From a virus: DNA of 41,320 bases. Positions 1 to 38,340 of the stretch are shown here, one piece after another. The notes under the pieces were generated by a model. It had not been told where the DNA came from and ran no database searches. It saw nothing but the letters and a program-made list of their open reading frames with translations. The DNA lies in IMG/VR virus record IMGVR_UViG_3300031539_000106, positions 1-41,320 of that record; one strand, written 5' to 3'. The position numbers and the translations under genes are program-made. Within the stretch, counting starts at the first letter, position 1. Every line of letters begins with the position of its first letter.

Positions 1-749
1 TTCTGCGCCTTCGCCGCCTCCGCGATGCCACCGAATCCGCGCTTCGCTTCCCGGCGAGACTTCTCCGCTTCGCGGTCGCGCTTGGGCTTCTTCGCGGCGG
101 CCTTCTTGGGCTTCTTCGCGGCGGCCTTCTTGGGCTTCTTCGCGGCGGCCTCCTTGGGCTTCTTCGCGGCGGCCTTGGCCGTCCTCCGGTTCGGCGTGGC
201 CGTGGCGGTCCGCTTGCGTCGGTTCGGGGTCGCGCGGCGCTTGTTGGCCGTCGTGCGTCGGTTTCGTGCTGCAGTAGCCACCTTGGTCTTGCCCTTTCTG
301 TTGGGACGCTGCCGGACGCCCTTGAAGCTGGCGCCGCCTCGTCGCTCGTTCTGGGTGAACGGAACCTCCCGCACCGCAGCGCGGGCGGCAGTGTTCTCGG
401 CGAGCCCGCGTCCACGCGCGGCTCGGTAGGCGGCAAGTCGCTGCCCGGCGCGGCGCTGTTGTCCCGCCGGCGCTCCGTTGCTGCGCATCTTTTTCACGAA
501 CGCCGCGCGGTGCTGGCCAGCGTTGGCCATCATCCCTCGGGCGCGATTCAGCTGCTCACCGTGCGAGCGGTTCGTGGCAGCGCTCCGAGCGGACCGAGCG
601 CCGCGTCCGTTGACCGTCGTCAGCGCGGTGACGCCGATCGGGTTCGGCGTGACGCGACGGCCGGCGCCGGGACGATCGACCATGCGGTACGACCCGACGT
701 CTGCTTCTCTGATGGGAAACGCTCTCCCGTAAGACTTCTGACCTGCCAA
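1..749 (-). CDS. Lysine/alanine-rich basic DNA-binding protein (histone H1-like tail), cut by window edge
   Basis: About 249 codons are visible and the frame runs off the left edge. The protein is extremely rich in Arg, Lys and Ala, and residues ~192-223 hold four near-perfect copies of an 8-residue unit of the type AAKKPKKA, as in histone H1-like bacterial and viral proteins. No fold is recognisable. Such proteins bind and condense DNA, so a role in packing the viral genome or as a virion core protein is likely (inference). I chose the TTG at 749 because GAGG lies 10 bases upstream; ATG codons at 683 or 533 are alternatives. It has its own promoter with a palindrome inside (826-854), so it may be expressed separately from the genes before it. 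Confidence 0.7.
   Translation of the reverse strand, partial: MAGQKSYGRAFPIREADVGSYRMVDRPGAGRRVTPNPIGVTALTTVNGRGARSARSAATNRSHGEQLNRARGMMANAGQHRAAFVKKMRSNGAPAGQQRRAGQRLAAYRAARGRGLAENTAARAAVREVPFTQNERRGGASFKGVRQRPNRKGKTKVATAARNRRTTANKRRATPNRRKRTATATPNRRTAKAAAKKPKEAAAKKPKKAAAKKPKKAAAKKPKRDREAEKSRREAKRGFGGIAEAAKAQ
81..176 (-). repeat. 24-bp tandem repeat, four units, coding for AAKKPKKA units
   Basis: Four in-frame units of 24 bases encode the Lys/Ala/Pro repeat of the basic protein. One unit has Glu in place of a Lys. In-frame repeat number in such tails commonly varies between relatives. Confidence 0.85.
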
Positions 750-825
750 TTTGGACGTACCTCTGCTGTCAGGCGAGGCACTGGGGCTGTCGGGAAGCCG
801 CCGCAGCGTTGCCGATACAATCCGG

Positions 826-854
826 AGACTACCCGTGGCACATGCCACGGTCAA
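826..854 (-). promoter_or_regulatory. Sigma70-like promoter with palindrome in the spacer
   Basis: On the minus strand, TTGACC (854-849) is separated by exactly 17 bases from TAGTCT (831-826). The spacer and -35 carry a perfect 8-2-8 palindrome, CCGTGGCA-CA-TGCCACGG on the plus strand, at 833-850. It faces the basic protein gene. A repressor or activator bound to the palindrome would sit exactly between -35 and -10. The sequence around the -10 (822-838) recurs at 35331-35347. Confidence 0.6.
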
Positions 855-876
855 CACGGAAAGATCGCAAGTGGAA

Positions 877-892
877 GCCCCGATTCCGGGGC
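877..892 (-). terminator. GC-rich hairpin after the virion operon, possible terminator
   Basis: GCCCCG-ATTC-CGGGGC gives a 6-bp stem and 4-base loop, 40 bases downstream of the stop codon at 932. No convincing U tract follows on the minus strand, so intrinsic termination is only possible. The gene-free stretch 750-931 contains this hairpin and the promoter at 826-854 and nothing else that I can see. Confidence 0.3.
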
Positions 893-931
893 CTGGGGGG
901 CAAGCCGCACCGGAACCGAGGCCCGTGAAGC

Positions 932-1294
932 CTATGCTGCGCGCCGGCGGCGCACCAGGACGGTCGCACCGAAACCTACAACGAACCAAAAAATCCCTGC
1001 GATTGCCATGGAACGCCCGAGGCTCGGGGGTCCTTGGTACGCCGGCTTCGCCAGTCCTCGAAAGCACTTCTCGGGGTCGTCCGCCGCGTCGCACTGCGCC
1101 GACCACGCTTGCCAATCGTCCAGCGTCACGCCGCGCTCCTCGGACGCCTTGAGCAAGATCAGAAACGACTCGTTCGCAGGACGTCCCTCGATGTCTTTGC
1201 GATCTACCCCAGTGAGATCGACGATCACGGAGGCGTACAGCAGGTTGCGCTGGTCCTGCGTCAGCGCTGGTCGCGGCGCAGCGATCGTGTTCAT
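932..1294 (-). CDS. Small membrane-anchored protein, putative virion protein
   Basis: 120 residues. Residues 1-90 are soluble, with two cysteines at 68 and 77 in a C-x8-CF arrangement. Residues ~94-114 form one membrane helix followed by the basic tail RRRRAA, so the C-terminus probably faces the inside. The ATG at 1294 overlaps the previous stop as ATGA. This is the last gene of the long minus-strand run before the hairpin at 877-892. I recognise no family. The layout (soluble N-domain, C-terminal helix, basic end) is shared by many of its neighbours and suggests a membrane protein of the virion. Confidence 0.7.
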   Translation of the reverse strand: MNTIAAPRPALTQDQRNLLYASVIVDLTGVDRKDIEGRPANESFLILLKASEERGVTLDDWQAWSAQCDAADDPEKCFRGLAKPAYQGPPSLGRSMAIAGIFWFVVGFGATVLVRRRRAA

Positions 1295-1854
1295 CGCATC
1301 CCCCGAATAGCGACTGCACCAGCGACCACAACGACAACGAGCCCGAGCACCGCACCGATCTTCGCCGTTTTGACGTCGCCGCCGCGCTGCTGCGCCTGGT
1401 ACATCTCCTGGTTCAGCGTCTGCCGGAAGCAGTTGACGTCGTAGTTGCACGCGGGCAGCCAATCGCCCACGTCGTCGGGTGAAACCCCGCGCGCGATCAA
1501 CGCTGCGTCGACATCCGCTACCGATGCAGAGGGGGCAAGCCCCAACTCGCCAGTGAGGATCACCCACGCCTGTAGCTCGGGGCCCATCGTCGCGTTCTGC
1601 GCGGCGAAGACCTCGTTGCATCCTCCAGGGTTCAGCCCGTAGCAGGCTGGGTTCTGGCACTCCGCCACGATCCCCTGCTCCTGCCGCACGACTGTGCAGA
1701 GGTACGCAATCTGCGCGGGAGTCAGCTGATCCGGCGGAGGGGCAGCCGCTGGCTGCTGCGCTGCATAAGACGACTCCATCTGCTCCACCGCTTCCGGCGG
1801 AAACATCGTGAAGGAGTCCTCCACCGAGTTTGGGTCGTAGCCCAGCGCGATCAT
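1291..1854 (-). CDS. Membrane protein with one CxxPxCY cysteine module
   Basis: 187 residues. Residues 44-80 match the cysteine module that occurs four times in the protein at 6857-8281: QIxYLC, then Gly, then CxxPxCYxLNxxGC. A second cysteine pair (C136, C142) ends in CF, like the neighbouring protein at 932-1294. Residues ~165-183 are a Val/Ala-rich membrane helix, followed by a short basic end. The start at 1854 forms ATGA with the stop of the 24-residue gene before it. Sharing a module across separate genes argues that these proteins act in the same structure. No enzymatic motif is visible. Confidence 0.7.
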   Translation of the reverse strand: MIALGYDPNSVEDSFTMFPPEAVEQMESSYAAQQPAAAPPPDQLTPAQIAYLCTVVRQEQGIVAECQNPACYGLNPGGCNEVFAAQNATMGPELQAWVILTGELGLAPSASVADVDAALIARGVSPDDVGDWLPACNYDVNCFRQTLNQEMYQAQQRGGDVKTAKIGAVLGLVVVVVAGAVAIRGMR

Positions 1855-1925
1855 CTGCGCCCCCGCGCGATCAAGACCGCCGTGGTGACCAGAAGCCCAA
1901 GGCCGATGTATCCAGCGAGATTCAT
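1851..1925 (-). CDS. 24-residue single-helix membrane microprotein
   Basis: A 25-codon frame that starts at ATG 1925 and stops at 1851. The product starts MNLAGYIGLGLLV and continues as a hydrophobic helix ending in ARGRR. Its start overlaps the stop of the 629-residue gene as ATGA, and its stop overlaps the next start as ATGA, so it sits exactly in the translational chain. Removing it would leave a 67-base gap in an operon where gaps are rare. Very short single-helix proteins are typical of membrane-containing phage virions. It is easily missed by length cut-offs. Confidence 0.6.
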   Translation of the reverse strand: MNLAGYIGLGLLVTTAVLIARGRR

Positions 1926-3811
1926 CGCCTCCCCAGTATCTCAGCGGCTGCCCAGCCTGCCAAGGCTCCGACGCCACTCATGAACAAGCCGGCGTTAAGC
2001 TGCGCTTCCATGCTGGCCTTGGCACGTCGCTCACGCAACAGATCGCGGCGAGCCTGGGCGACCTGTGCCGTCATCACGCGCGCGATCTGCTGCTGCGAAA
2101 CGTATGTCTCTGCGGCGCTCGCGAATCCCTCTCCATAATACTGGAGAGCGCTGGCTTCGGAATCCTGGAAAGCGCTGGCGGCAATCGCAGCCCTCTGTGC
2201 CTGGACGTTTTGCTCCGCAGCAAGTGCAGCGACCGTCTGGTTGATGTTTCGCGAAACGAGCCCCTGCGCCGGACCGGCCTGATCGAGCGACCGGATCATG
2301 TACTGGCTCCACTCCGGAACCTTGCACATCTCCAGATCCTCGGGCCGCAGTGCGCTCCGGACTCGCGATAGGTACTGCAGGTACTCCCTGTCCGTGTGCG
2401 GTGTGTCAAACCAGCACTGCACGTAGCTCCCTGACGTGCGACCGCCCGACCAGCACTTGGTCGCCCCGTCGCCGAGCCAATTGCCGTCGGCGATTCCGAA
2501 GTATTCCAACATCCCGTGAAACGGCGTGACGAAGCGACGCGCGTTCCAAAACGCGAGCGCCAAGTAGGCGGATAGGTACGTCCCCTGCGACGAGACGTGC
2601 CATGACCCACGGGCTGGGTGGCCGGTTTTGGTCACGTTTGGCGCCGTGTCGCGCGTCTTCGGCGAAGCGCCTGGAATCCGAATCCATGCTCCAGCTGGGT
2701 TCGGCTCGTCGTAGTACAGGCACCCGGACTCCACCTCGCAGCCGCGCGCTACCGGAAACGGTACCGGCTCGAAGTAGTGCAGTGACTTTTTTCCGAACGG
2801 CATCTTGATGTCCTTCGGTAGCGCGATCAGGCCGACGTCACCGAAGTACCGCAGCCCGTCGCCCATGTACGGAGCCTGCTCGTTCAGAATGCCCTGCAGA
2901 TTCGTGATCAGTTCGTTCCAGTACGCATTGTAGGCGTCCCACGCCTCCGTGGCCATCTGGAGGCACTGCGCCTCCATCGCCGCCTTGGCCTTGAGCATCG
3001 CGTTCCATGCTTTGCCGCGCAGTTCATCAGCGGACTCACCGAAGCCCAGCCAGTCGTAGATGACGCCGGTCACCAGGCCACCTACGAAGGCACCAACCGG
3101 CGCGGGAATCCCGAAGTATTGGCCGATCGCCGCGCCGACCGCGGCGCCGACAGCGGTGACGATGCCCTTTATCTCGTCTTCGTCGAGCTTTCCGTCCCAG
3201 AGCGCCGAGATCGTCGTGGTTACGACTCCGACACCTGGGATGCCAGCGGTCGTCATGACGGCGCAGGCGCTGGCGGCCACCATCGACTTCGCGCTCATGT
3301 CCGTCGGGATCGGAAGCCCGTACTGCTGCCCAATGTTGATCGCGACGTCCTTGAGCCGATCCGCCGCCTCCTCCGGCGTGTCAGGCCAATCTTTGATGAA
3401 CCCGACGGCATTCAGTAGCGCCGGGTGAAAACCCATCTGCTGTCCCTGCTGATCGAGGTACGCCCACGCCATATCGACGGCCTCGTCCGGCGTGGTCGGA
3501 TAGCCGTGCACGGCCACATGCGCGAGCATCTGCGTATAGGATGTGTCGGGGTCCACCGTTAGCTGGTCGCTGTACGGGATCTCCTTGTTGACGGCCTCTT
3601 GCAGCTGTCCCTGCGTGTCCCTGATCATGCCTTGCACCTCGGGACGACTCCAGACGTCGGTCTGCTCGTCGATCCATCCCGATAGTTCCTCCTGGCTGGT
3701 GGGCACGTACGTGGGCATTGGAACCGTTGGGCTGACCCCCTGCACGGCGAGCGTCAGCTTGCCCATTCCGCTCGGCACGTAGAGCGGACCGCTGCGGTGA
3801 AAGCGTGTCAT
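1922..3811 (-). CDS. 629-residue protein with central Gly/Ala membrane segments, putative virion or entry protein
   Basis: The largest protein of the membrane-protein cluster. Residues 1-170 are soluble and helical. Residues ~176-204 and ~216-256 are hydrophobic, Gly/Ala-rich segments with a glycine-zipper look. A soluble, Trp- and Cys-containing domain follows, then a long helical stretch (~510-595), and a last hydrophobic helix at ~603-625. No known domain is recognised. Paired Gly/Ala helices in a large virion protein could serve membrane insertion or DNA delivery (inference). ATG 3811 overlaps the previous stop, and its own stop overlaps the microprotein start. Confidence 0.65.
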   Translation of the reverse strand: MTRFHRSGPLYVPSGMGKLTLAVQGVSPTVPMPTYVPTSQEELSGWIDEQTDVWSRPEVQGMIRDTQGQLQEAVNKEIPYSDQLTVDPDTSYTQMLAHVAVHGYPTTPDEAVDMAWAYLDQQGQQMGFHPALLNAVGFIKDWPDTPEEAADRLKDVAINIGQQYGLPIPTDMSAKSMVAASACAVMTTAGIPGVGVVTTTISALWDGKLDEDEIKGIVTAVGAAVGAAIGQYFGIPAPVGAFVGGLVTGVIYDWLGFGESADELRGKAWNAMLKAKAAMEAQCLQMATEAWDAYNAYWNELITNLQGILNEQAPYMGDGLRYFGDVGLIALPKDIKMPFGKKSLHYFEPVPFPVARGCEVESGCLYYDEPNPAGAWIRIPGASPKTRDTAPNVTKTGHPARGSWHVSSQGTYLSAYLALAFWNARRFVTPFHGMLEYFGIADGNWLGDGATKCWSGGRTSGSYVQCWFDTPHTDREYLQYLSRVRSALRPEDLEMCKVPEWSQYMIRSLDQAGPAQGLVSRNINQTVAALAAEQNVQAQRAAIAASAFQDSEASALQYYGEGFASAAETYVSQQQIARVMTAQVAQARRDLLRERRAKASMEAQLNAGLFMSGVGALAGWAAAEILGRR

Positions 3812-4386
3812 CCGACGACCCCGTCCTCCTCGATGCCAAGCTCACCGCCGGTCAGCACGACGTGCACACCGCGAGCGTCGTAGACGAACAGAAACTTCTC
3901 GCCCGTCTGCGGATGTGCCGCCCCGCCGAGATACGCTCGCGCGACGGTGATCTCGAACAGGTTGCCGTCAGCCCCGTCGCCCTTCGGGAGATAGTGCTCC
4001 TCATCGTCGCAGCGGTAGAGACGCACCTGCAGCCCGAGCAGCGGACCGAGACGAGCGAAGTGCTTCGGCATCGGCTCCTCGAACGACACCATCGGTCCGC
4101 ATAGCTCGATGGAACGCCGTGGATTCCCCCACTCGCGCAGAAACCCTAACACCATGTAGACGGTGCGCGTCCCCTCGACGACGTGCTTGTACTCGTCGTA
4201 GTCCGCGAGGTTCTTCTGCCACTTGTTGGAGCGGTACATCTCCGCTTTGCCCTCGCCGACCTCCTGCATCTCGGCAGGCCAGCCGAAGGTCATCGGGATC
4301 TCCTGGCGAAAGCGCCGATCGTGAAAGACCTTGAACGTCTTCTCGGCCTCCGCCTTGGTGTCGACTACGCGCACGCGCCCCATCAT
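3808..4386 (-). CDS. Soluble protein of unknown function in the virion operon
   Basis: 192 residues, no membrane segment, and one of the few purely soluble products in this part of the operon. Mixed alpha/beta character: residues 1-60 are charged and helical, residues ~135-180 look like beta strands (NLFEITVARAYLGG, KFLFVYD, GVHVVLTGG). Two adjacent ATG codons begin the gene at 4386; the first forms ATGA with the previous stop. No family recognised. It may be a capsid-associated or assembly protein. Confidence 0.6.
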   Translation of the reverse strand: MMGRVRVVDTKAEAEKTFKVFHDRRFRQEIPMTFGWPAEMQEVGEGKAEMYRSNKWQKNLADYDEYKHVVEGTRTVYMVLGFLREWGNPRRSIELCGPMVSFEEPMPKHFARLGPLLGLQVRLYRCDDEEHYLPKGDGADGNLFEITVARAYLGGAAHPQTGEKFLFVYDARGVHVVLTGGELGIEEDGVVG

Positions 4387-4730
4387 GCTGCCTTTCGGTA
4401 GTACCAGACGATGAGGCCACCGAGGAGGCTGCCCAGCAGCAGGGAGCGCCAGTCGACGCTGAGCCCTACTCCACCGAGCGGCCCGGTCCTCGCGACGAGC
4501 CGCGTGCTGTCGACCGGGGCGACCAGTCCCTGAGCGAACTCGCCATCCCCGGCGTACGTGGCACCGAACGGAATCGGGCGCCCCGCTTCGATGGATGGCA
4601 CTCCGATGCGTGACGCCGGCACGAGATCCGGTGTCGGCAGATCGTCGTTCAGGTTCGGCGACGGCTCGGCAGCGTCGAAGTACGACCACGCCCCGGTTGC
4701 TGGATCCCAGCGCGAGTACCTCGTACCCAC
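4383..4730 (-). CDS. Small protein with C-terminal membrane helix
   Basis: 115 residues from a GTG start at 4730, one base after the previous stop and 10 bases after GAGAGG. The first ~90 residues are polar and proline-rich. Residues ~95-111 (SLLLGSLLGGLIVWYY) form a membrane helix followed by RKAA. The open frame extends further upstream, but that part has no protein-like character. Another soluble-head, C-anchor protein like its neighbours. Confidence 0.6.
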   Translation of the reverse strand: MGTRYSRWDPATGAWSYFDAAEPSPNLNDDLPTPDLVPASRIGVPSIEAGRPIPFGATYAGDGEFAQGLVAPVDSTRLVARTGPLGGVGLSVDWRSLLLGSLLGGLIVWYYRKAA

Positions 4731-4731
4731 G

Positions 4732-5274
4732 TCACGCGATCCTCTCTGCCACACGCTTCGACGCCTTCGAGAAAGGGCGCAGAAACGCGAAGTGGATGTA
4801 CGCTCCGCCGGCGAACAGCGCCGCTCCCAAAAGCAGGTGCTTTGGTGGCACAAGAGGCGGTTCCTTCGGGGTGTCCCCGTAGGTTCCCTCCGAGGTCTTC
4901 CGCGACGGTTGCCCCATCATCTCCTCGGTAGTCATGCCAGTTTCCTGCACATAGATCACCTGCTCCAACTCTTCGGGCGTCGCAGCGTTCGCTCGCTGGA
5001 ACTCGTCGCGTATCATGCGCGCCTCGTCCCAGTGGACACACGGCAAGCTGGCACAGTCGTAGTAGTAGTCGACGTAGCCAAGCGAGTCGTACCACTCGAT
5101 CCACTCGTCGCGAAGCGCAGTCGCCGTAGCGCTATTGCATCGCGGTGGAGAGCCGCAGGCGTTGACCATGTATTCGTTCAACGCGAGCATGTTCTCGCGG
5201 TACTCCGAGTATTCAGGTTCGTTCCAGCCGTCGCCGGTCATTGCCCCGAGCCCAGCGTTGCCGTGATAGGTCAC
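4732..5274 (-). CDS. Cysteine-containing protein with C-terminal membrane helix
   Basis: 180 residues. GTG at 5274 forms GTGA with the preceding stop. The head contains four cysteines (about 40, 46, 74, 79) around Tyr- and Trp-rich helices, which may form two disulfides. Residues ~146-164 are a membrane helix, followed by a basic tail (RPFSKASKRVAERIA). The N-terminus carries GNAGLGAMTGDG, an instance of the GLG motif seen in many virion-cluster proteins. No family recognised. Confidence 0.65.
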   Translation of the reverse strand: MTYHGNAGLGAMTGDGWNEPEYSEYRENMLALNEYMVNACGSPPRCNSATATALRDEWIEWYDSLGYVDYYYDCASLPCVHWDEARMIRDEFQRANAATPEELEQVIYVQETGMTTEEMMGQPSRKTSEGTYGDTPKEPPLVPPKHLLLGAALFAGGAYIHFAFLRPFSKASKRVAERIA

Positions 5275-5636
5275 GCCGCACCCCGCTTCTTCTCGCCGCG
5301 CCACGACATGTAGGCGAAGACGCCGAAGGTCCCAGCCATCACCATCCAGGCCCAGCGTGGCACCTGGTTCACGGCCGTCGACAGATCCCGTCCGAACGCG
5401 CTCGGACGCTCGCCTCCCTCGATGTACGAAGCCCACCGCGCCGGGAATATCTCCGCCGGCGTGTAGTAGCCGAGGTTCACCATCGTCGCGGCATCGTTGT
5501 GGCCGTGGGCAACCGTCGACGACGAACCCATCCCAGCGCGCTGGTACGCGAGCACGGCTCCGTCGGTCACGGCGTCCCACTCGCCGCTCAACGGAACGCC
5601 GAGACGGCTCTGAACCATTTCGACGCGGCTAGGCAT
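5271..5636 (-). CDS. Short peptidoglycan-binding-like domain with membrane anchor
   Basis: 121 residues. Residues 1-35 resemble half of a PG_binding_1 repeat: VQSRLG followed by LSGEWDAVTDGAVLAYQ, where related domains have DGxxGPxTxxAVxxFQ. Residues ~95-112 are a membrane helix, with the basic end RGEKKRGAA. It sits among three other genes with the same type of repeat. PG_binding_1 domains bind murein, so attachment to the cell wall is likely. The repeat is divergent and lacks the Cys found in its neighbours. Confidence 0.6.
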   Translation of the reverse strand: MPSRVEMVQSRLGVPLSGEWDAVTDGAVLAYQRAGMGSSSTVAHGHNDAATMVNLGYYTPAEIFPARWASYIEGGERPSAFGRDLSTAVNQVPRWAWMVMAGTFGVFAYMSWRGEKKRGAA

Positions 5637-5639
5637 CGG

Positions 5640-6140
5640 CTACTTCTTCTTGCCCTTCATGATGAGCGCCGCGCCCACCGCCACGAGCGCGATGGCTCCG
5701 CCGTAGACCAGCGCGTTACCGCCGCCGAGGCTCATGCGCCGCGTGGGTCGCGCGATCGAGAGCTTCATCGGCTCGGTGAAGGACTGGCACGTCGCGGGAG
5801 CCTCTCCGATCATCTCTTTCACCGCGCCACAGGTCGATGGGCCGAGCACGCCGTCGGCTTCGATCGGCGCGTAGCCTCCCTTGGTGAGCGCGATGTTCGT
5901 CTCGTCCTGCAGCGCCTTGGTGTCGGCGCTGTACTGCTTCCATGGGTAGCTTGGGTCCTGACCCATGCCACGCGAGACGATGCCAAGCGAGTTGCCGGAG
6001 AGCGCCCCGTTGCTCGTTCCGAGCCCGTGGATGGGCGAAGCGTAGATCGGGTTGTAGCCGCCCGGAAAGTCCTGATCCCAGCGGGCATTCAGGTCGCTCA
6101 GGTCGACGTATCGGTGGCTGCCCCATTCGACGGTTTCCAT
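5640..6140 (-). CDS. Membrane-anchored peptidoglycan-binding-like protein
   Basis: 166 residues from ATG 6140, preceded by GGAGG. Residues ~65-118 resemble a PG_binding_1 repeat: YPWKQYS, then LQDETNIAL, then DGVLGPSTCGAV and a second Cys 14 residues later. Residues ~142-161 form a membrane helix and the protein ends MKGKKK. The motif YPWxxYS and the TCGA cysteine are shared with the protein at 6159-6860. Likely role: displayed on a membrane and bound to murein during adsorption or entry (inference). IHGLGTSNG at 38-46 is another GLG motif. Confidence 0.7.
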   Translation of the reverse strand: METVEWGSHRYVDLSDLNARWDQDFPGGYNPIYASPIHGLGTSNGALSGNSLGIVSRGMGQDPSYPWKQYSADTKALQDETNIALTKGGYAPIEADGVLGPSTCGAVKEMIGEAPATCQSFTEPMKLSIARPTRRMSLGGGNALVYGGAIALVAVGAALIMKGKKK

Positions 6141-6158
6141 GGCGTCCTCCAGTATATC

Positions 6159-6860
6159 CTACGCCGCCTTCTTCTTGCGGCTCATGGCGAAAATACCGAC
6201 GCCCACGACGGCGGCGATGCCGAGGCCGATCAGGCCCGGAGACATTCCTGCGCGTGAGGTCGGCGACGAGGTAGGCGTCTCAAAACCGGGAGGCGCCGAT
6301 GACGTCGTGGCGCTCGTTGTCGACGCCTGGGTGGCGATGATCGTGGTCGGCGCGGTCTCGTCCGGGGTCCCGTACACGAGGGCGGGATTGTAGGATGACT
6401 GCTGGCAGGTGCTCGGCTTGAGGATCGAGACGCCCTGCGCCTTGAGAAAGTCGATCGCTCCGCAGGTTTCCGGGCCCAGGTACCCGTCCTGCGTGATGGG
6501 CTGCTTGTTGAAAGTCGACAGGTAGCCGTTGACCTGACCCTGCAGCGAGTAGGTGGCTGACGAGTACGTGTTCCACGGGTAGGTGGCCACAGCGCTCGTG
6601 GTGGTCGGCGTGTTGGTTGGAGCGCCGGGGCCCGTGATCACGGCGGCGCCGCCGCTCGTGTAGGCTGGACCGCTCGCCGTTTGCTGCTCTGCGAGCCAGT
6701 CGTCGAAGTCATCACCGATCCCTCGCACGCCGGCTGCCGCCTGCTCGTACTGGCCCAGTCCACCGAAGCCCATGCCAGAGCCGTCGAAGATTCCGCCGCC
6801 GTAGCCACCGGGGCCGAAGACGCCCCCTCGCGTTCGTACTGCCAATCCGAGGATGTTCAC
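6159..6860 (-). CDS. Membrane-anchored peptidoglycan-binding-like protein with Thr/Pro-rich linker
   Basis: 233 residues. GTG 6860 forms GTGA with the preceding stop. Order of parts: Gly-rich N-terminus with GFGGLGQ (31-37), Thr/Ser-rich spacer, YPWNTYS (94-100), PG_binding_1-like repeat at ~104-140 with DGYLGPETCGAI, a partner Cys at 152, a long Thr/Ser/Pro linker (165-205), a membrane helix (~207-226) and the tail MSRKKKAA. The linker looks like a stalk that lifts the binding domain from the membrane. Close in plan to the protein at 5640-6140. Confidence 0.7.
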   Translation of the reverse strand: MNILGLAVRTRGGVFGPGGYGGGIFDGSGMGFGGLGQYEQAAAGVRGIGDDFDDWLAEQQTASGPAYTSGGAAVITGPGAPTNTPTTTSAVATYPWNTYSSATYSLQGQVNGYLSTFNKQPITQDGYLGPETCGAIDFLKAQGVSILKPSTCQQSSYNPALVYGTPDETAPTTIIATQASTTSATTSSAPPGFETPTSSPTSRAGMSPGLIGLGIAAVVGVGIFAMSRKKKAA

Positions 6861-8281
6861 ATTCCACCTGCTGCTTTCGTTTTCGCGTAGTACACGCCGC
6901 CGCCGATAGCAGCGGCCAGAAGCCCACCGATGCCGACGATGGCGGCGGTGCTCATCTTTCTCTTGGTGCCGGTGGGAGCAGCTGGCTCCAGCGTCGGGGC
7001 GGTCACGCGCGTCGGCATCGTGACCTGCGGGCAGTCCCCTGGAAAGATGAAATCTTGCCCGTCGCACCACTGGTTCGCGTCGACGTCGTAGCGGAAGCTG
7101 CCGCCGAGCGTGTACTGGGCGCCGCACGTTGCGGCATCCCACACGCCGGTCACGGCGATCGGAGCGTAGCCTGCCGCCTGGAGCGCCACGTTGATGGCTT
7201 CCTGGAAGTGACGAATGTGGGGGCCCCTGTCGCCTGGACGGACGTAGCAGTCGCATGTCTCCAGGCCGTCCGAGTGGATGAAGCAGGCGTTGGATTCGGG
7301 CATCGGCGTCATGCCGGGGGTGGACGGGGGTGGCGGAGGCGGCGCCTGGGCGGCCTGAGCAGCTGCGGCATCACATCCCGCCGGGTTGAGCAGGTAGCAC
7401 TTCGGATCCCCGCACGTTCCAAGGACGCCTTGCGATGCCATCATCGCGAAGCACCGAGGAGCTTCCGCGCGAAGCTCCTCGCATCCGGACGGGTTCAGCG
7501 CGTAGCATTCGGGGACATCGCATGCTGAAAGGGTGCCGTCCTGCGCGATCTTCGCCATGCACAGGTACTGAATCTGCTCCGGCGTGTATTGCGGAGCGGC
7601 CGCCGCCTCGGAGCGCTTTCGATCGCAGAGTTCCTTGCTGAGTGCGTAGCACTCCGGGATGTCACACGTCGGCAGAACGCCATGCTGCTGCGCGTTCACC
7701 TGACACAGATAGGCGATCTGCTGCGGCGTGTAGCCGGACGGGGTCTCGGGGGGGTACATCGCGGCGTCGCAGTTCGCCTGGTTCCGCATGTAGCAGTCTG
7801 GGTTCTGGCAAGCGGCCACAAGACCGTCCTGCTGTGCCGCGGCGGTGCAAAGGTACGCGATCTGCTCCTCCGTGTACTGCGGAGGCGCCTGTGGCGGGGG
7901 CCCCGATGCCGTCGGCATCGTCCATGGTTTCACCACTTGCTGATCGCACACCGTTCCCACCGCTGGGTGCGCCTGCATGTAGGCCACGACCGCCTGTGCC
8001 TCGGTCGTGGCTAGTTGCACGAGTTCGGCCGGCGCCTGCGTGAACCAGAACTGGAGGGCTCCGCACGTCGCCTTGCCGAGCTTCCCGTCTTCCTGCAACG
8101 GCGCGTAGTTCAACGCGGCATGCAAGGCGTTCAGCACCTGCTGCGCGCCGAGCACCTCCGCGTTGTAGACGCCGGCGTAGATGGCGCCCAGGCCCAGCAG
8201 CCCGAGCCCATCGATCGGCTCCGGCTCGTAGAAGCCCGCACCGGTGGCCGCGCCGATGACATGCCCGTTGTTCCAGTACAT
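6857..8281 (-). CDS. 474-residue membrane-anchored protein: two peptidoglycan-binding-like domains and four cysteine modules
   Basis: Order of parts: hydrophobic Gly-rich N-terminus with GLGLLGLGA (25-33); first PG_binding_1-like repeat (~45-80, EDGKLGKATCGAL); four copies of a cysteine module at about 136-171, 184-219, 232-267 and 275-303, each of the type QIxYLC-x7-G-x4-CxxPxCYxLNxxxC at a spacing of 48 residues; a Pro run (314-319); second PG_binding_1-like repeat (~355-390, TGVWDAATCGA); a membrane helix (~443-466) and a short C-tail. This appears to be the most elaborate cell-wall-binding protein of the set, probably disulfide-stabilised and exposed. I know no named family for the cysteine module. 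Confidence 0.75.
   Translation of the reverse strand: MYWNNGHVIGAATGAGFYEPEPIDGLGLLGLGAIYAGVYNAEVLGAQQVLNALHAALNYAPLQEDGKLGKATCGALQFWFTQAPAELVQLATTEAQAVVAYMQAHPAVGTVCDQQVVKPWTMPTASGPPPQAPPQYTEEQIAYLCTAAAQQDGLVAACQNPDCYMRNQANCDAAMYPPETPSGYTPQQIAYLCQVNAQQHGVLPTCDIPECYALSKELCDRKRSEAAAAPQYTPEQIQYLCMAKIAQDGTLSACDVPECYALNPSGCEELRAEAPRCFAMMASQGVLGTCGDPKCYLLNPAGCDAAAAQAAQAPPPPPPSTPGMTPMPESNACFIHSDGLETCDCYVRPGDRGPHIRHFQEAINVALQAAGYAPIAVTGVWDAATCGAQYTLGGSFRYDVDANQWCDGQDFIFPGDCPQVTMPTRVTAPTLEPAAPTGTKRKMSTAAIVGIGGLLAAAIGGGVYYAKTKAAGGM
7373..7876 (-). repeat. Four-fold repeat encoding the CxxPxCY cysteine module
   Basis: Coding repeat of about 144 bases per unit inside the 474-residue protein. The first three units are complete; the fourth lacks the QIxYLC lead. 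A fifth, separate copy lies in the gene at 1291-1854. The DNA has diverged more than the protein, so the repeats are not recent. Confidence 0.75.
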
Positions 8282-8284
8282 GCG

Positions 8285-8791
8285 CTACGCCTTCCTTCCG
8301 AGCCAAAAGCCCGCAACGAACACCACGCTCAGACCGATCAGCCAACGCCGACCGTCCTTCGCCTGCTTCACGCGCTCCTGGCACGCCTCGTTTTGCATGT
8401 ACGCGGCGAAGTCCTCGGCGCTTTCGACCGAGACCGGAACGGGGAACGCCGCGTTGCAGTCGGCCGCGTTGCGGGGCTCAGCCGGCGGCACGCACTTGCC
8501 CTGCACCGGATCGTAGACGTAGCCCTTGAAGTTAGGCCCGAGCACCGCGCATCCGCCGGGTGCTGCCGGGTCACCTTCCATCGAGGGTGGCGCCCCGTTC
8601 TGCCAGACGTCCCCGAGCCCAGCGGTCCCAGACGACACGCCGAAGTCGTACGGACGATCCATCCAGTCGAGCGAGTGCATCGGTCGCGTGTAGACGGGGC
8701 CGTGGTACCGCGTCGGATAGGCGTGGACTCGGACGCCGAACGGGTTCGGCACGCCGGCCGGGTACGGGCCGTCGTAGGTGTTCATGCTCAT
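8285..8791 (-). CDS. Cysteine-containing protein with C-terminal membrane helix
   Basis: 168 residues. ATG 8791 overlaps the previous stop as ATGA; a second ATG lies two codons on. The head is rich in Pro, Tyr and Gly, with cysteines near 81, 100, 112 and 137 that may pair. SGTAGLGDVW (54-63) is a GLG motif. Residues ~149-165 form a membrane helix with the end GRKA. No family recognised. By position and plan it is a virion membrane protein. Confidence 0.65.
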   Translation of the reverse strand: MSMNTYDGPYPAGVPNPFGVRVHAYPTRYHGPVYTRPMHSLDWMDRPYDFGVSSGTAGLGDVWQNGAPPSMEGDPAAPGGCAVLGPNFKGYVYDPVQGKCVPPAEPRNAADCNAAFPVPVSVESAEDFAAYMQNEACQERVKQAKDGRRWLIGLSVVFVAGFWLGRKA

Positions 8792-9216
8792 GGGCTCACC
8801 TCTCGGATTACGATCCTGTCGAAGTAGGGCTCCTGCTGCTCGCGGTACATCTCGGCGTCAGAGCGCCGGTCGAAGTGACGCTCGTACCGAGGATCCCACG
8901 CGCCACCGGCGTAGCGCTTGTCGTCTTCGTCGAGGTACATCTCGACGATGAAGGCCGCCTCCTCCTCCTCCTCCTCGTCCTCGTCCTCCTGCGAGGAGCG
9001 CCAAAGCAGGTAGCCGCCACCGGCCACGAGGCCGAGCAGCAGCAGCGTGCCGACGCCGGCTCCTGTGCCTGTGGCACCCACGGCGCGCTGCGATGGAGCG
9101 GGCGGAGTGCCCCACAGCGCATCCCGGCCCCACGGGTCGAGGTGCGTGTACCGCATCTCGGGCGCCTGCGACGGCATGTGCTCCGGAAGCGTTGGGGCTT
9201 GGTCGATGAAGGCCAT
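8788..9216 (-). CDS. Membrane protein with acidic run, putative virion protein
   Basis: 142 residues from ATG 9216, 12 bases after the previous stop. Residues ~54-72 (LLLLGLVAGGGYLLW) are a membrane helix near the middle. Directly after it comes a run of about ten Asp/Glu (77-86), then a charged C-terminal domain. This is the reverse charge pattern of the neighbours with basic tails, so the two kinds could pair across or along a membrane. No family recognised. Confidence 0.65.
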   Translation of the reverse strand: MAFIDQAPTLPEHMPSQAPEMRYTHLDPWGRDALWGTPPAPSQRAVGATGTGAGVGTLLLLGLVAGGGYLLWRSSQEDEDEEEEEEAAFIVEMYLDEDDKRYAGGAWDPRYERHFDRRSDAEMYREQQEPYFDRIVIREVSP

Positions 9217-9227
9217 CAGCGCTGGAC

Positions 9228-9674
9228 TCAGCCCTTCCGCTGGGAGACCCAGCCCATGATGCCGAGGCCGAGGGTCCCAGTGAGGAGCCCGACAGGTACG
9301 CCGATCCAGCCCCACTTCTTCGCGTCGCTCGGACTCGGAGCCATCGCCTCGCCGGCCTGGTACGAGAGCCAGCCGCCGGCGCCGAGGAGCAGGACCCAGA
9401 TGAGCATCCCTCCGAGGAGGCCCCCGGTCTGTCCCATGCCCTGCATTCGCGCCTGCTGCTGCTGCTGGCGCATCGCTTGAGCCGCCGCCGCGACCGGGGA
9501 GACCAGCGCGAGGGTCGGCGAGACGATGCCCAGCCCGAAGCCGCTCGGGCCCCGTGGCGAAACTTCTCCAGGCATGTACTGGCCGGCCTTCGGAGGACGC
9601 CCGACCATCGGCATCGTCTGAGCCGGCGGATTCGCGAAGACGTCGAATTGCGGGAGGATGCTCTGCTGGTTCAT
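9228..9674 (-). CDS. Two-helix membrane protein
   Basis: 148 residues. ATG 9674 forms ATGA with the preceding stop. The N-terminal ~65 residues are Pro/Gly-rich with GFGLGIVSP (45-53), followed by a Gln run (70-74). Two membrane helices lie at ~87-104 and ~123-141 with a short loop between, and the end is SQRKG. No family recognised. Confidence 0.65.
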   Translation of the reverse strand: MNQQSILPQFDVFANPPAQTMPMVGRPPKAGQYMPGEVSPRGPSGFGLGIVSPTLALVSPVAAAAQAMRQQQQQARMQGMGQTGGLLGGMLIWVLLLGAGGWLSYQAGEAMAPSPSDAKKWGWIGVPVGLLTGTLGLGIMGWVSQRKG

Positions 9675-9931
9675 GTGTCCCTCAAAACTGCAATAGCCAA
9701 GGCCGCCGTGCCGGCTGCGGCACCGCCAGCGGTCCAAACCCCAACGCGGCGACCAGTCCTTTTGGCAAAAGAACGTCCCACTACGGCGCCGATGATGGTT
9801 GGTCCCAGTGCAATCGCTCCTATAGCCGCATAGAACAGCACCACGGCGACGGTGCCATCCCCCTCGATGATTCCCAGACCGTCCCGCATGGCGCCGACAG
9901 GCGCGACTCGCTGCTCGAACTCGAAGCGCAT
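9671..9931 (-). CDS. Small two-helix membrane protein
   Basis: 86 residues. Residues ~27-50 and ~62-83 are membrane helices joined by a basic loop (AKRTGRR), so both ends probably face the same side. MRDGLGIIEGDG at 15-26 repeats the GLG motif. The stop overlaps the next start. Comparable in size and plan to small virion membrane proteins of membrane-containing phages, but no homologue can be named. Confidence 0.65.
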   Translation of the reverse strand: MRFEFEQRVAPVGAMRDGLGIIEGDGTVAVVLFYAAIGAIALGPTIIGAVVGRSFAKRTGRRVGVWTAGGAAAGTAALAIAVLRDT

Positions 9932-9934
9932 CTT

Positions 9935-10636
9935 CTACTTTCCCATCACCGTTGCTGCGAACAGTCCCAGGGCGACGCCGACCACCGCGGCGCCGAACAG
10001 CTTCTGGCCACCGGTCGCGCCGCCGTTCGTCTGCCCCATCCCCGACACCGGGTACGCATACTCGCTCGGGATCCACGTGCTGGCGAAGCCTGGCCCAGTC
10101 ACCGGATTCGGGTTGTACTCGGGAGGAAGCTCCCAGAGGTTCCGGCGCATCTCCAGCGCGTCGCGCTGCGCGGCGTCGATGGCGACGGCGCCGGCCGGCA
10201 CGTACATGATCGGCTGACCTGTGGTGCCGTCGATCACCTGGCTCGGTTGGTAGAACCGATCGCGGACGATGTAGCCTGGCAGCGACTCGTGATCCGCGAA
10301 GACGCCCTCGTCCGGGTGCACGTTGCCGTGCGATCCATCCGGATCGAAGATCCCGTTGCCCTGCACGTCGTCAGCCGCAGCGAGAAGGTTGAGTTCGTTC
10401 GGGTAGTCGCGAATGCCTTCGTCGGCGCTCGGCACGTCGTTCATGTCGTTGGCTCCTAGTCCCGCGATGTTGCGGCCCCACGCTCCCTTGTAGAGCGAGT
10501 ACGATGGATTGATCAGAGACGTCGGCCGCACGTCGGGCGGTCCCAGGTCGTCGATGGAGGGAAGCTCGCCACCGAACAGAGGCGTCTGCGCGTAGACGGG
10601 GTACGGGGGGGCCAGCTGTGAAACTCGGTTCGACAT
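9935..10636 (-). CDS. Acidic protein with C-terminal membrane helix
   Basis: 233 residues. The soluble head (1-205) is acidic, Pro- and Asn-rich and has no cysteine. NIAGLGAND (56-64) is a GLG motif, and SGMGQTNGG (198-206) precedes the membrane helix at ~213-230; the protein ends MGK. It begins at ATG 10636, directly abutting the stop of the transglutaminase-fold gene. No family recognised. Confidence 0.65.
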   Translation of the reverse strand: MSNRVSQLAPPYPVYAQTPLFGGELPSIDDLGPPDVRPTSLINPSYSLYKGAWGRNIAGLGANDMNDVPSADEGIRDYPNELNLLAAADDVQGNGIFDPDGSHGNVHPDEGVFADHESLPGYIVRDRFYQPSQVIDGTTGQPIMYVPAGAVAIDAAQRDALEMRRNLWELPPEYNPNPVTGPGFASTWIPSEYAYPVSGMGQTNGGATGGQKLFGAAVVGVALGLFAATVMGK

Positions 10637-11203
10637 TCAGATCCCCATGCTCATTCCCGCGCCGGCCGGTTCGTCCAGGCTGACGGTGTAGTAGGTGGAC
10701 GCACGCTCCAGCATCCCGCGCTCGTCCGTGCCCGCCACCGGGTCGCACACGATCCATTCGCCGGACCTCGGCTCCTTCACTCGGGCGAAGACGTGGGAGT
10801 ACGACCCAGCGCCCCCGAACCCGACGACGACGTACTCGGCCTCGCGACCAAGCTGCAGGCACATGGTGCCGATCAGGGTCGCGATGTCGTCGCAGTCGCC
10901 GACCGCCTGTCCGCGCGCGGCGATCTCCTCGCACAGACGCTGCGGGTCCTTGACCATCTCGACGTGCATCGGATCGTTCGCGTACCTCACGCGCTCCGTC
11001 ACCCAGTACCGCACGGCCAGGATCTCGCCCAGGTAGTCCTTCGGCTGCACCGACCGCACTACCTCTTCGAGCATCGAGCGCACGAGCATACTTTGCTCGC
11101 CTCGCGGCCCGTGGGCCACCTGCACCATGGCGGCCAGCGTATCCGGGTGACCGGAGAAGCCAGCGAGCGTGTGCGGTGGTTCGTAACTGAGGGCTGCGGG
11201 CAT
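10637..11203 (-). CDS. Transglutaminase-like cysteine peptidase/transferase
   Basis: 188 residues. The transglutaminase-like catalytic triad is visible: Cys104 in GDCDDIATL, His137 in SYSHVFARV and Asp154 in VCDPVAG, in the order and spacing of the family. The enzyme could cleave or cross-link peptides, either in the host wall or within the virion. It is the first gene after a good promoter (11246-11274) and heads the membrane-protein run, which points to virion assembly or entry. The leader carries a perfect hairpin (11211-11226) just before the ATG at 11203. Confidence 0.8.
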   Translation of the reverse strand: MPAALSYEPPHTLAGFSGHPDTLAAMVQVAHGPRGEQSMLVRSMLEEVVRSVQPKDYLGEILAVRYWVTERVRYANDPMHVEMVKDPQRLCEEIAARGQAVGDCDDIATLIGTMCLQLGREAEYVVVGFGGAGSYSHVFARVKEPRSGEWIVCDPVAGTDERGMLERASTYYTVSLDEPAGAGMSMGI

Positions 11204-11210
11204 ACCTGTA

Positions 11211-11226
11211 CCGACGCAGGCGTCGG
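11211..11226 (-). promoter_or_regulatory. Perfect 7-2-7 palindrome in the leader before the transglutaminase-like gene
   Basis: CCGACGC-AG-GCGTCGG lies 7 bases upstream of the start codon and about 20 bases after the predicted transcription start. As RNA it would form a stable hairpin at the ribosome site; as DNA it could be an operator. Confidence 0.5.
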
Positions 11227-11245
11227 GAAGCGCTCCGCAGACCGA

Positions 11246-11274
11246 ACTCTACCGAGCCCGGGGTACTAACTCAA
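11246..11274 (-). promoter_or_regulatory. Sigma70-like promoter for the virion membrane-protein operon
   Basis: TTGAGT (11274-11269), 17-base spacer, TAGAGT (11251-11246) on the minus strand. The -35 contains the stop codon of the preceding gene. The flanks GG before TAG and CGG after the -10 match the promoter-like elements at 822-838, 17617-17627 and 35331-35347. Confidence 0.6.
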
Positions 11275-13808
11275 GCGTTCGCAGGTACTTGCGGCTGAGA
11301 CGCGCCAGCGTGCTGCTCTTGGAGCGCCTGCCACAGTGATTCCACCCACTTTTTTCCATCGCGGCGCAGGACAGGGCTCTCAGCGCCCCCCATGGCCTCG
11401 ACCACGTGGAACAGGTCTTGGGGGGTGAAACCAGTGGCCAGCCGGAAGCTCGGCTCGGGGTACGCCTGCGCAAACCGCTCGGCGAACACCGTCGCGGAGA
11501 ACCCCGTCTCGACCGCGCGCTCGACCTCGGCGCGGAACTGCTGGATGTACTCCGCGGTGATCCCAGCTGCGCCGAACCGGTTCTGTAGCTCGACGTTGAC
11601 GGCGCCGGCGCCGGGAGGCGCGGGCTGCTGCGGTGACTGTTGCGCTTGAGGCGCGGCCTGTGCCTGCGCTGGCGCTCCAGCGCCATTGGTCGGTTGAGGC
11701 GCCGACTCCGCCGGCTGCCAGCCCACGTCGTTCGCTGGCATATGCGGCTGGGCCCCATCGATCGGCACGTCAGCCTTCGATGCCCACGCGACGGCACGAC
11801 TGCGCCGCTGCTGAGGTGCTTGCGACCCCTGCTGACGGGCGCCGGGTGGCATCCCGGTCGGCAGCTGCCTCGGCTGTGGCATCCCAGGCGGTAGCCCTGG
11901 CGTCCTCGCTGCAGAGCGAATCTCCGCGACCTCGCGCATCGTCTTTGGGAGCCAGTCCTGGATTCCTTCCAGCGCTTTGCCGAGACCCATGCCGACGCCA
12001 GATGCAAGTCGCTCCGTCGCCGTCTGAGGCGCGTTCTCGTCCGCCTTCGTGAAGCCGAACGCCTCCGCGAGAGACTCGGCCTTCTCTTTCACCTTGATCG
12101 GGTCCTTCGCGTCGTCCACTTCCTGGCGCAGTCGCTCCGCTTCTTCGCGGGCAGCCTGTGCGCGCTCCTCAGCTGCCAGACGCTGAAAGTCCAGGGTCGT
12201 CTTTTGCGTCTCGATGCGCGTCGTCGCGTGCTGTTCGTTCATGCGTAGCTCGCGATCGTGCTGCTCCTTCATGTCCCTGATGCGATCCTCGAAGCGTTTC
12301 TCCGTCTCTCGCACGCGCTCCGCGGCCACGTCGCGCTCGTCGCGTCGCACGCGATCGATCTCGTCCTTGAGTTCCTTCTCGCGCTTCTCCGCGTGCTTCT
12401 CGACGTCGTCGATCTTGCGTCGATAGTGCTCCTCCAGATCGCGATAACGAGCGTGTTCGCGGTTCATCTCGCTCTGATGCGATTCCTTGAGCGCCTGCAC
12501 CGTGGTCTGGTGGGTCTCGCGCAAGTGCCTCACCTCCTCGCCGTGGCGTTCCTTCGCAGCGGCGAGTGCCTCTCGCGCTGCCTCGTTCGCCTGCCGGGTG
12601 GCCTCGGCTGGGTTCAGTAGCTGCAGCGTTTTGAGCGTGTTGTCGTCGCCCCCCCTCCCTTTCTCAACGACGGCATCGAGCTTTTGCTCCAGACGCCTCC
12701 GCTCAGCCCGCTCCTCCGCAAGCTGCTCCGCTAGCGCCCTCTCGCGCGAATCCGCGGCCTTCGTGGCTGCGTCCACCGCTTGTCGGCTGCTGTCGCTGAT
12801 CACCTTGAGTACATCCCCGGACATTTGGCCTCGCTTGTCTAGTTCGCGTCGTAGATCGCGACTCTCTTCGTCGCCGCGCTTGAGCAGCTTCTCCATGAAG
12901 TCCACGGAGGTGCGATGCATCGTCGCCTCCGCCGGCGTCGCCGGAACTCCGGCGCCCATCCCAAAGAGCGTCTGAAACGGATTGATCTCTGCCATGGCAG
13001 CCACTTCCTCCTTCTTCGTTGCCTTCGCGGCCGGGAGCACTCGGAGGTTGGGCGGCAGCATCGGCACCGTCACCTTGATTGCCTCGGTCTTCGCTTTGAT
13101 GATCGGCTCGTCGGTATTCGGATCGCGACGGCCTTTCGGATCGGGGCCGTACAGAGTCACCAGGTACTCCTTGCCCCCGAAGTATCGTTGGAACTCTTCC
13201 TCGCTGATCGGGCTGCTGATCTCCCCCAGGTAGCCAGCCACCGCGATCTTCTCCCAGACCTTCGGCTGAACGCGCTCGACGCGCAGGTAATGCTGGCCGT
13301 CGCCGACGGGCCACCGCGCGTAAATGTCCTGCAGGGTCTTCGGCGGTGCGACTCCGACGAGATCCTCGTCCTCCACGACGTTGATCGGACCGATCGTCAT
13401 CTGCGAGCGCCGGCGAGCGTCCGATTCCGTGGGGGGTACCGTGTCTCCCGCTGTGCTGACCTGGGCTGGCATGTCCTCGTCCTCGTCTTCAACGCCTGCG
13501 TGCTTGGCGACCAAGTCGTCCATGCTCGTCGGCTTCGGGCGTGGCCGCTTCTTCTTCGCCGCTGCCTTCTCGTCGCGCTCCGGGTTCTGCTCACGAGCGT
13601 TCTGGCGCTCGTCCTCGGTCATCGCGACGAAATCCTCCGGGTCGAGGCCCCTTCTCCGGGCCTCGACCTTGAGCTTCCGCGTCCACTGCGCTTTCGCCAT
13701 GGCGCGCTCGCGCGGCGACATGTTCGCGTACGCCTTGTACGGAACCTCGTACACGTGCGCTTCGGCCTGCAGCTTCCGATCGATCGGCTGTGCAGGCGAA
13801 TCGGTCAT
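11271..13808 (-). CDS. 845-residue protein with long coiled coil, putative structural or scaffold protein
   Basis: Order of parts: basic helical N-terminus (30-95) with an Arg/Lys patch at 84-92; acidic stretch (105-112); a beta-rich region at ~155-255; a very long charged coiled coil from ~305 to ~580, dense in Glu, Arg and Gln; GVGMGLG (604-610); a Pro/Gln/Ala-rich disordered linker (640-745); and a C-terminal helical domain (~745-830). No signal peptide or membrane helix. Long coiled coils with disordered linkers suit a scaffold, spike base or DNA-organising protein. It is not a typical tape measure, which would have hydrophobic helices. ATG 13808 overlaps the previous stop. Confidence 0.65.
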   Translation of the reverse strand: MTDSPAQPIDRKLQAEAHVYEVPYKAYANMSPRERAMAKAQWTRKLKVEARRRGLDPEDFVAMTEDERQNAREQNPERDEKAAAKKKRPRPKPTSMDDLVAKHAGVEDEDEDMPAQVSTAGDTVPPTESDARRRSQMTIGPINVVEDEDLVGVAPPKTLQDIYARWPVGDGQHYLRVERVQPKVWEKIAVAGYLGEISSPISEEEFQRYFGGKEYLVTLYGPDPKGRRDPNTDEPIIKAKTEAIKVTVPMLPPNLRVLPAAKATKKEEVAAMAEINPFQTLFGMGAGVPATPAEATMHRTSVDFMEKLLKRGDEESRDLRRELDKRGQMSGDVLKVISDSSRQAVDAATKAADSRERALAEQLAEERAERRRLEQKLDAVVEKGRGGDDNTLKTLQLLNPAEATRQANEAAREALAAAKERHGEEVRHLRETHQTTVQALKESHQSEMNREHARYRDLEEHYRRKIDDVEKHAEKREKELKDEIDRVRRDERDVAAERVRETEKRFEDRIRDMKEQHDRELRMNEQHATTRIETQKTTLDFQRLAAEERAQAAREEAERLRQEVDDAKDPIKVKEKAESLAEAFGFTKADENAPQTATERLASGVGMGLGKALEGIQDWLPKTMREVAEIRSAARTPGLPPGMPQPRQLPTGMPPGARQQGSQAPQQRRSRAVAWASKADVPIDGAQPHMPANDVGWQPAESAPQPTNGAGAPAQAQAAPQAQQSPQQPAPPGAGAVNVELQNRFGAAGITAEYIQQFRAEVERAVETGFSATVFAERFAQAYPEPSFRLATGFTPQDLFHVVEAMGGAESPVLRRDGKKWVESLWQALQEQHAGASQPQVPANA

Positions 13809-14314: not shown

Positions 14315-14315
14315 G

Positions 14316-26638: not shown

Positions 26639-26817
26639 GTACGCCTCCACTGCCAAACCATGACGCCGTCGCGGCTCGTCACGGGCGCGCCGCAGCGCGC
26701 ACACACGGCGAAGTCTCCGCTCGGGCCCTGCTCGTCGTTGTCAGGGCGCAGGCAGTTGGTGCACACGACCACGAGTTCCTGCGTCATGAGGCGCCGCAGC
26801 CGCTCCACGAACTTCAC
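26635..26817 (-). CDS. Small zinc-ribbon protein
   Basis: 60 residues from GTG 26817 (GTGA junction). CTNC (19-22) and CARC (39-42) form a four-cysteine zinc ribbon. The N-terminus is a basic helix and the C-terminus ends VMVWQWRRT. It probably assists a partner encoded nearby, such as the exonuclease, but nothing specific is visible. Confidence 0.6.
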   Translation of the reverse strand: MKFVERLRRLMTQELVVVCTNCLRPDNDEQGPSGDFAVCARCGAPVTSRDGVMVWQWRRT

Positions 26818-36767: not shown

Positions 36768-36770
36768 GCT

Positions 36771-38308: not shown

Positions 38309-38340
38309 GCTGCACCCACCCAAAACCAGGAGACAGGAGC

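Follow-up and report, generated by a model that had tools for sequence, protein, structure and literature searches.

The tailless phage SSIP-1 has an internal membrane, a circular 44-kb double-stranded DNA (dsDNA) genome and a capsid of T = 49 (PMC6356626, PMC6260650); at 44 kb it is the largest tailless bacterial virus among the tabulated prokaryotic viruses (PMC6260650). In the viruses HCIV-1 and HHIV-2, membrane-proximal proteins position the capsomers and membrane complexes at the vertices nucleate the shell (PMC6414509). Together with SH1 and P23-77 these represent the Sphaerolipoviridae/Helvetiavirae, whose shells have two major capsid proteins of the vertical single-jelly-roll type. Among the viruses of eukaryotes, large DNA viruses with jelly-roll capsids are known. 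Tailless bacterial viruses of 110-180 kb are not described in open-licence PMC titles and abstracts, as far as the partial coverage of that source extends. The DNA analysed here, referred to as the window, is a single entire IMG/VR record (IMGVR_UViG_3300031539_000106; 41,320 bases, G+C content 66%), which is cut at both ends. We consider with good confidence that it is a fragment of a tailless bacterial virus of 110-180 kb, the region 932-11203 being that portion of the structural module which encodes the virion's membrane proteins. A large tailless membrane-containing phage had been proposed in a preliminary description of the same DNA, and this is supported by the absence of the tested tailed-phage genes from related genomes and by SSIP-1 being the only named relative of the module.

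With the transglutaminase-like gene g16 of the window as query, 14 viral contigs were retrieved, eight of them larger than 110 kb; these eight large relatives were read whole. Direct terminal overlaps are present in four relatives (G002, 138,414 bp; G013, 136,226 bp; G007, 111,584 bp; G004, about 140 kb), which are thus complete genomes, circular or circularly permuted, of 111-140 kb, and related records reach 182 kb. The window is collinear end to end with both G002 (genes 138 to 55) and G013 (genes 154 to 73), and so represents roughly a third of such a genome. With the record cut at both ends and its relatives collinear and longer, the genome does extend past both ends of the window, as had been supposed. 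Most proteins of the structural module are 30-60% identical between the relatives and the window.

Codon-based gene calling identified 66 genes in the window, to which one missed gene (9671-9931) was added. The region 932-11203 possesses 16 genes, every one on the minus strand. Using a Kyte-Doolittle cut-off of 1.5, a membrane segment was called in 10 of 15 called genes of this region, compared with 4 of the 47 genes in the rest of the window (Fisher p = 2e-5). By eye, g06, g08 and g12 have a hydrophobic C-terminal stretch and basic tail slightly below the cut-off; with these three and the added gene of 86 amino acids (aa), about 14 of the 16 genes carry a hydrophobic segment, g05 and g16 being the only ones that do not. 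The initial count of 17 genes, about 15 of them with membrane helices, was therefore marginally high, while its point that most encode such helices stands. The predominant form is a soluble head followed by a C-terminal helix and a short Lys/Arg tail. This architecture had also been recognised earlier, and both hydropathy and enrichment tests confirm it, the combination of C-terminal helix and basic tail being enriched in the module of four relatives (p = 2e-4 to 4e-10). As seen in the relatives, the membrane module continues past window base 1, so that 932-11203, originally taken as its extent, is too narrow on the left. The shape and the lipid of the virion are inferred, the enrichment in membrane proteins being only indirect as to the lipid. 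The genes of the module within the window (3-15149, all on the minus strand; TM, transmembrane segment) are as follows.

3-683, minus: g01, 5' part of a Lys/Ala-rich protein running off the contig (38-50% identity to G003_069, G013_154 and G007_099)
932-1294, minus: g02, 120 aa, C-terminal TM and RRRRAA tail; orthologs in five relatives
1291-1854, minus: g03, 187 aa, Cys-rich repeat head and C-terminal TM; repeat D2 is common to g03 and g11
1922-3811, minus: g04, membrane protein of 629 aa, orthologs in eight related records; no Pfam or PHROG match
3808-4386, minus: g05, soluble core protein of 192 aa, in 8/8 large relatives (31-61% identity)
4383-4730, minus: g06, core protein of 115 aa with a hydrophobic C-terminal helix (hydropathy, relatives)
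4732-5241, minus: g07, 169 aa, C-terminal TM and basic tail (hydropathy); no ortholog among the relatives by sequence comparison
5271-5636, minus: g08, 121 aa, peptidoglycan-binding-like head (by eye) and C-terminal helix
5640-6140, minus: g09, 166 aa, with a repeat that by eye resembles peptidoglycan-binding domains, a pair of G[LM]G motifs, a C-terminal TM and KGKKK
6159-6860, minus: g10, 233 aa, architecture as g09, with G[LM]G motifs, C-terminal TM and RKKKAA
6857-8281, minus: g11, 474 aa, Cys-rich repeats and C-terminal TM
8285-8791, minus: g12, 168 aa, GLG motif, C-terminal helix and GRKA
8788-9216, minus: g13, 142 aa, central TM followed by an acidic run
9228-9674, minus: g14, 148 aa, two TMs by the cut-off, GMG motif
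9671-9931, minus: 86-aa gene absent from the first gene call, two TMs and a DGLG motif; no relative by tblastn among the records searched
9935-10636, minus: g15, core protein of 233 aa, GMG right before the C-terminal TM, abutting g16; in 8/8 large relatives (39-61% identity)
10637-11203, minus: g16, transglutaminase-like enzyme with a Cys-His-Asp triad (Pfam Transglut_core, 4e-7)
11271-13808, minus: g17, core protein of 845 aa, long, charged and helical (coiled-coil-like), in 8/8 large relatives (24-42% identity); no match among phage records or PHROGs
14316-15149, minus: g19, core protein of 277 aa, in 8/8 large relatives

Near the start of the g01 protein, a 24-nucleotide tandem repeat (window 57-200) encodes AAAKKPKK, giving a Lys/Ala stretch resembling histone H1.

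The link to a proven membrane phage is provided by g16. Compared with 50,697 phage records, its sole match was gp34 of SSIP-1 (E = 1e-7), which is annotated as a structural (virion) protein; a profile of the g16 family matches gp34 with an E-value of 1.3e-12, and the Cys-His-Asp triad is invariant across the family, gp34 included. Ten late genes of SSIP-1 also encode a C-terminal hydrophobic helix, namely gp34, open reading frames (ORFs) 35, 36 and 39, gp41, ORFs 42, 50 and 52, gp53 and ORF54. Apart from gp34, SSIP-1 virion proteins showed no credible similarity in the window or its relatives, and gp34 and gp45 as queries in IMG/VR retrieved only SSIP-1 itself. As the capsid proteins share no sequence similarity, kinship to SSIP-1 is distant, or partial only. 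Two other similarities were not used for kinship, that of ORF54 to G014_210 being of the transglycosylase type and that of gp43 to g53 of the window of the methyltransferase type.

A short motif, G[LM]G, recurs in the module proteins. Its density in the structural modules is 4-5 per 1000 residues in six relatives and 2 in G007, against 0.4-0.9 elsewhere, and in those six relatives the counts lie above all 200 shuffles. The motif is also found in the window at 932-11203 and 35350-38808, and in SSIP-1 nine of ten copies lie in the late half (p = 0.05). Often it separates a short N-terminal stretch from the head or immediately precedes the helix. As a guess, it may be a processing or cross-linking site for g16.

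Six-frame profile searches were carried out over 21 records, these being the window, 19 relatives and SSIP-1. The large terminase (PF03237, Terminase_6N) was found in 0/21, although it was matched in the control genomes (6), and the portal (Phage_portal, PF04860) and HK97 capsid (Phage_capsid, PF05065) were likewise found in 0/21 with matches in the control genomes. Scans of every window protein against Pfam and PHROG gave DnaB, DnaC/IstB, RecT, YqaJ/RecE, nucleases, NUDIX and a transglutaminase core, and the families listed included no gene for head or tail; nor was a tail-machine protein among those listed for nearly the whole proteome of the complete genome G002. In agreement with the preliminary description, terminase, portal, tube, sheath and baseplate were not detected in the window, nor was an HK97 capsid, and the longer assemblies, in which terminase or portal genes would have spoken against a tailless phage, yielded none in 19 related records. 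A highly diverged tailed phage, whose head and tail genes escape profile searches and whose membrane proteins serve lysis or superinfection, is accordingly unlikely. The genome size, the DnaB/DnaC/RecT content and the PHROG label 'tail fiber' on collagen-like proteins are typical of tailed phages, and many families have no known match; however, that label follows the collagen repeats and was rejected as evidence for a tail, the terminase that is missing from all 21 records with the portal and HK97 capsid is usually the easiest phage gene to detect, and none of these genes was seen in the scan of the complete genome G002. The late module instead consists of small tail-anchored membrane proteins and the beta-rich capsid candidates described below, and its only named relative is tailless.

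In the same searches, the packaging ATPase families FtsK_SpoIIIE (PF01580) and Pox_A32 (PF04665) gave sub-threshold matches only, all at P-loops, one for FtsK_SpoIIIE in G002 lying within DnaB. An ATPase of the FtsK/HerA type, which the preliminary description had suggested looking for, was thus not found above the cut-off, and the only Walker-A proteins common to the group are DnaB and the DnaC/IstB-type loader.

Each of the eight large relatives has, right after its g01 homolog (cluster 22), a set of three adjacent genes (clusters 23, 24 and 25; cl23, cl24 and cl25) for proteins of about 250, 320 and 280 aa, at a position just beyond window base 1. A profile search with cluster 23 found the three together at 26 of 29 loci, cl25 not being found at the other three. 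Among close relatives cl23 is 78-92% identical, a conservation which would suit a major capsid protein. AlphaFold models of cl23 and cl24 are beta-rich (pLDDT 67.5 and 61.3). Searched against PDB with Foldseek, cl24 gave the capsid proteins of HHIV-2 and SH1 first, followed by PBCV-1 and D13, with HCIV-1 sixth, while cl23 gave SPV1 (6oj0) first (prob 0.75, E = 0.047) with many jelly-roll capsids below; a viral library gave the same jelly-roll picture. On these models, a jelly-roll fold of the two proteins is likely. No credible sequence match to the capsid candidates was found in phages, plasmids or PDB. The capsid-candidate gene was also detected on two contigs of metagenome-assembled genomes (MAGs; L107 and L108), labelled Pseudomonadota and Methanomicrobiales. 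These may be virus contigs binned into MAGs, their labels being weak host evidence, and no other credible carrier was seen among 399 genomes from the same phylum as the Pseudomonadota-labelled contig.

The preliminary description had expected a double-jelly-roll capsid, and most bacterial tailless membrane phages are of this type (PRD1/PM2-type, Bamfordvirae), with PBCV-1 and vaccinia D13 also appearing among the structure matches of cl24. Even so, such a phage is improbable here: the candidates are a tandem triplet of short proteins (250-320 aa), too short for two barrels, their top matches are to single-jelly-roll proteins (SPV1, HHIV-2, SH1, HCIV-1), as far as moderate models allow, no double-jelly-roll family was among the listed Pfam/PHROG hits, and no FtsK/HerA ATPase scored above the cut-off. 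Most improbable is a large plasmid or conjugative element that forms no virions and whose membrane proteins build a secretion or surface apparatus. In its favour are the failure to identify a packaging ATPase, the circular or permuted form of the genomes and a large tyrosine-recombinase protein in 7/8 relatives. Against it, the capsid candidate is unmatched among 72,556 plasmid records, relaxase and conjugation families are not among the listed Pfam hits of G002, the genes present include those for a lytic transglycosylase, an amidase and fibre proteins as well as an SSIP-1 virion-protein homolog, and IMG/VR classes the records as viruses.

Several points weigh against the tailless membrane-containing virus favoured here. 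Sequence ties the group specifically to a proven membrane phage through one protein only, and folds of the transglutaminase-like kind occur widely. Neither an FtsK/HerA nor an A32 ATPase was found, unlike in SSIP-1 (gp40) and most viruses of the lineage. The capsid genes themselves lie outside the window; the triplet has no sequence similarity to SSIP-1 virion proteins by profile search or hhalign, the latter giving no match between the triplet plus g59 (see below) and nine SSIP-1 proteins; and all Foldseek hits have E > 0.01 and TM-scores of 0.2-0.4, with models of moderate quality.

Beyond the module, the window carries genes for replication, recombination and fibres. The DnaB/DnaC and RecT/YqaJ pairs had been noted before and are confirmed by Pfam/PHROG family matches.

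19503-20945, minus: DnaB-type replicative helicase (Pfam DnaB_C, 1.1e-87; PHROG 19)
20938-21894, minus: DnaC/IstB-type helicase loader (Pfam and PHROG)
25092-25946, minus: RecT annealing protein (Pfam, 7e-35)
26814-27770, minus: YqaJ/RecE-type exonuclease (Pfam, 1e-27; PHROG 434, 5e-66)
35350-35928, plus: g58, GLG-rich protein whose relatives have a hydrophobic segment; in 8/8 large relatives
35925-36767, plus: g59, core protein of 280 aa adjoining the fibre genes; in 8/8 large relatives
36771-37682, plus: collagen-like (GPPGPP) fibre-type protein by sequence; collagen-repeat proteins at the same place in relatives
38341-38808, plus: g62, core protein with a Cys motif and an SGLGQD motif; in 8/8 large relatives
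38805-39353, plus: g63, core protein with the metallopeptidase signature HEFGH; in 8/8 large relatives (38-66% identity)

Of these, g59 is a possible vertex or spike component, and g63, being metallopeptidase-like, is a second candidate maturation enzyme. The gene adjoining DnaC has three repeat copies at 66-nucleotide spacing (22442-22647) with palindromes of the CGTCACA/TGTGACG type (families D4 and D5), which may be an origin or initiator-binding array or simply coding repeats. The relatives also possess a lytic transglycosylase and an amidase. Beside the structural module of G002 are two glycosyltransferases (L022:8807-10174 and L022:12051-13160), kept in 8/8 large relatives, which could glycosylate fibres or capsid. 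The structural module of 8/8 includes a small protein (G002 L021:19372-19992) that has Cys motifs and, at its C-terminus, a DnaJ-like domain. A protein of 1279 aa (G002 L022:15849-19688), in which a tyrosine-recombinase domain is combined with a long C-terminal extension, occurs in 7/8.

In the mechanism envisaged, the capsid would enclose a lipid vesicle derived from the host membrane, in which the membrane proteins would be anchored through their C-terminal helices, with their heads linking the vesicle to the shell and taking part in DNA delivery. The shell would be built of vertical single jelly rolls from the conserved beta-rich triplet, and g16 would most probably reside in the virion and cross-link or cleave the membrane proteins as the particle matures. 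Receptor binding could fall to the collagen-like fibres (window 36-38 kb), after which the peptidoglycan-binding-like heads of g08-g11, recognised by eye, and the lytic transglycosylase and amidase would guide passage through the cell wall. DnaB/DnaC and RecT/YqaJ would support theta or recombination-dependent replication and the recombination of a circular or circularly permuted genome. More speculatively, and with considerable doubt, the group may constitute a widespread undescribed lineage of high rank, tailless and membrane-containing, with genomes of 110-180 kb, three tandem single-jelly-roll shell proteins, transglutaminase-type maturation with G[LM]G-tagged membrane proteins as substrates, and packaging by a motor other than a terminase or FtsK/HerA.

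The Tectiviridae and Corticoviridae (PRD1, PM2) offer an analogy in their internal membrane, many small virion membrane proteins and virion-borne muralytic enzymes, but differ in their double-jelly-roll capsid and FtsK/HerA ATPase, neither of which was found here, and in their genomes of 10-15 kb. The collagen-like spike of PRD1, P5, belongs to the same analogy. The range of 10-15 kb, earlier given as that of membrane-containing phages in general, does not hold, as SSIP-1 has 44 kb and the archaeal virus HHIV-2 30 kb (PMC6260650). Sulfolobus polyhedral virus 1 (6oj0), the best PDB match of cl23, is archaeal, and with E = 0.047 the likeness is a fold resemblance only. The Sphaerolipoviridae are similar in that HHIV-2 and SH1 are the top PDB matches of the cl24 model, in the adjacent small beta-rich capsid candidates (E > 0.01, models moderate) and in the small tail-anchored membrane proteins expected beneath the shell. 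They differ in showing no sequence similarity, in having two capsid proteins instead of three tandem candidates, in genome size (about 30 kb for HHIV-2 against 110-180 kb; PMC6260650), and with respect to FtsK/HerA, which was not found here. SSIP-1, which is unclassified, shares the homologous transglutaminase-like virion protein (gp34 and g16) with its triad kept, late genes rich in C-terminal-helix proteins, some with an N-terminal G[LM]G, and circular dsDNA. However, its genome of 43.8 kb is three to four times smaller than those of the relatives, its capsid proteins have no sequence similarity to clusters 23-25, its P-loop protein gp40, a predicted packaging ATPase (PMC4124505), has no counterpart found in the group, and none of its proteins is matched by DnaB, DnaC, RecT or YqaJ of the window. 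Membership in either group fails or is undecided on the packaging ATPase and the capsid sequence, while the system works like a phage of the SSIP-1 or sphaerolipovirus type. Much of the structural module is missed by standard viral family libraries. The question raised is what packages 140 kb without a recognisable terminase or FtsK/HerA motor. If the reading as a tailless virus of this size is true, tailless internal-membrane phages reach up to four times the size of the largest one described, membrane-containing capsids scale to large genomes in bacteria too, and SSIP-1 turns from an orphan into a member of a diverse group.

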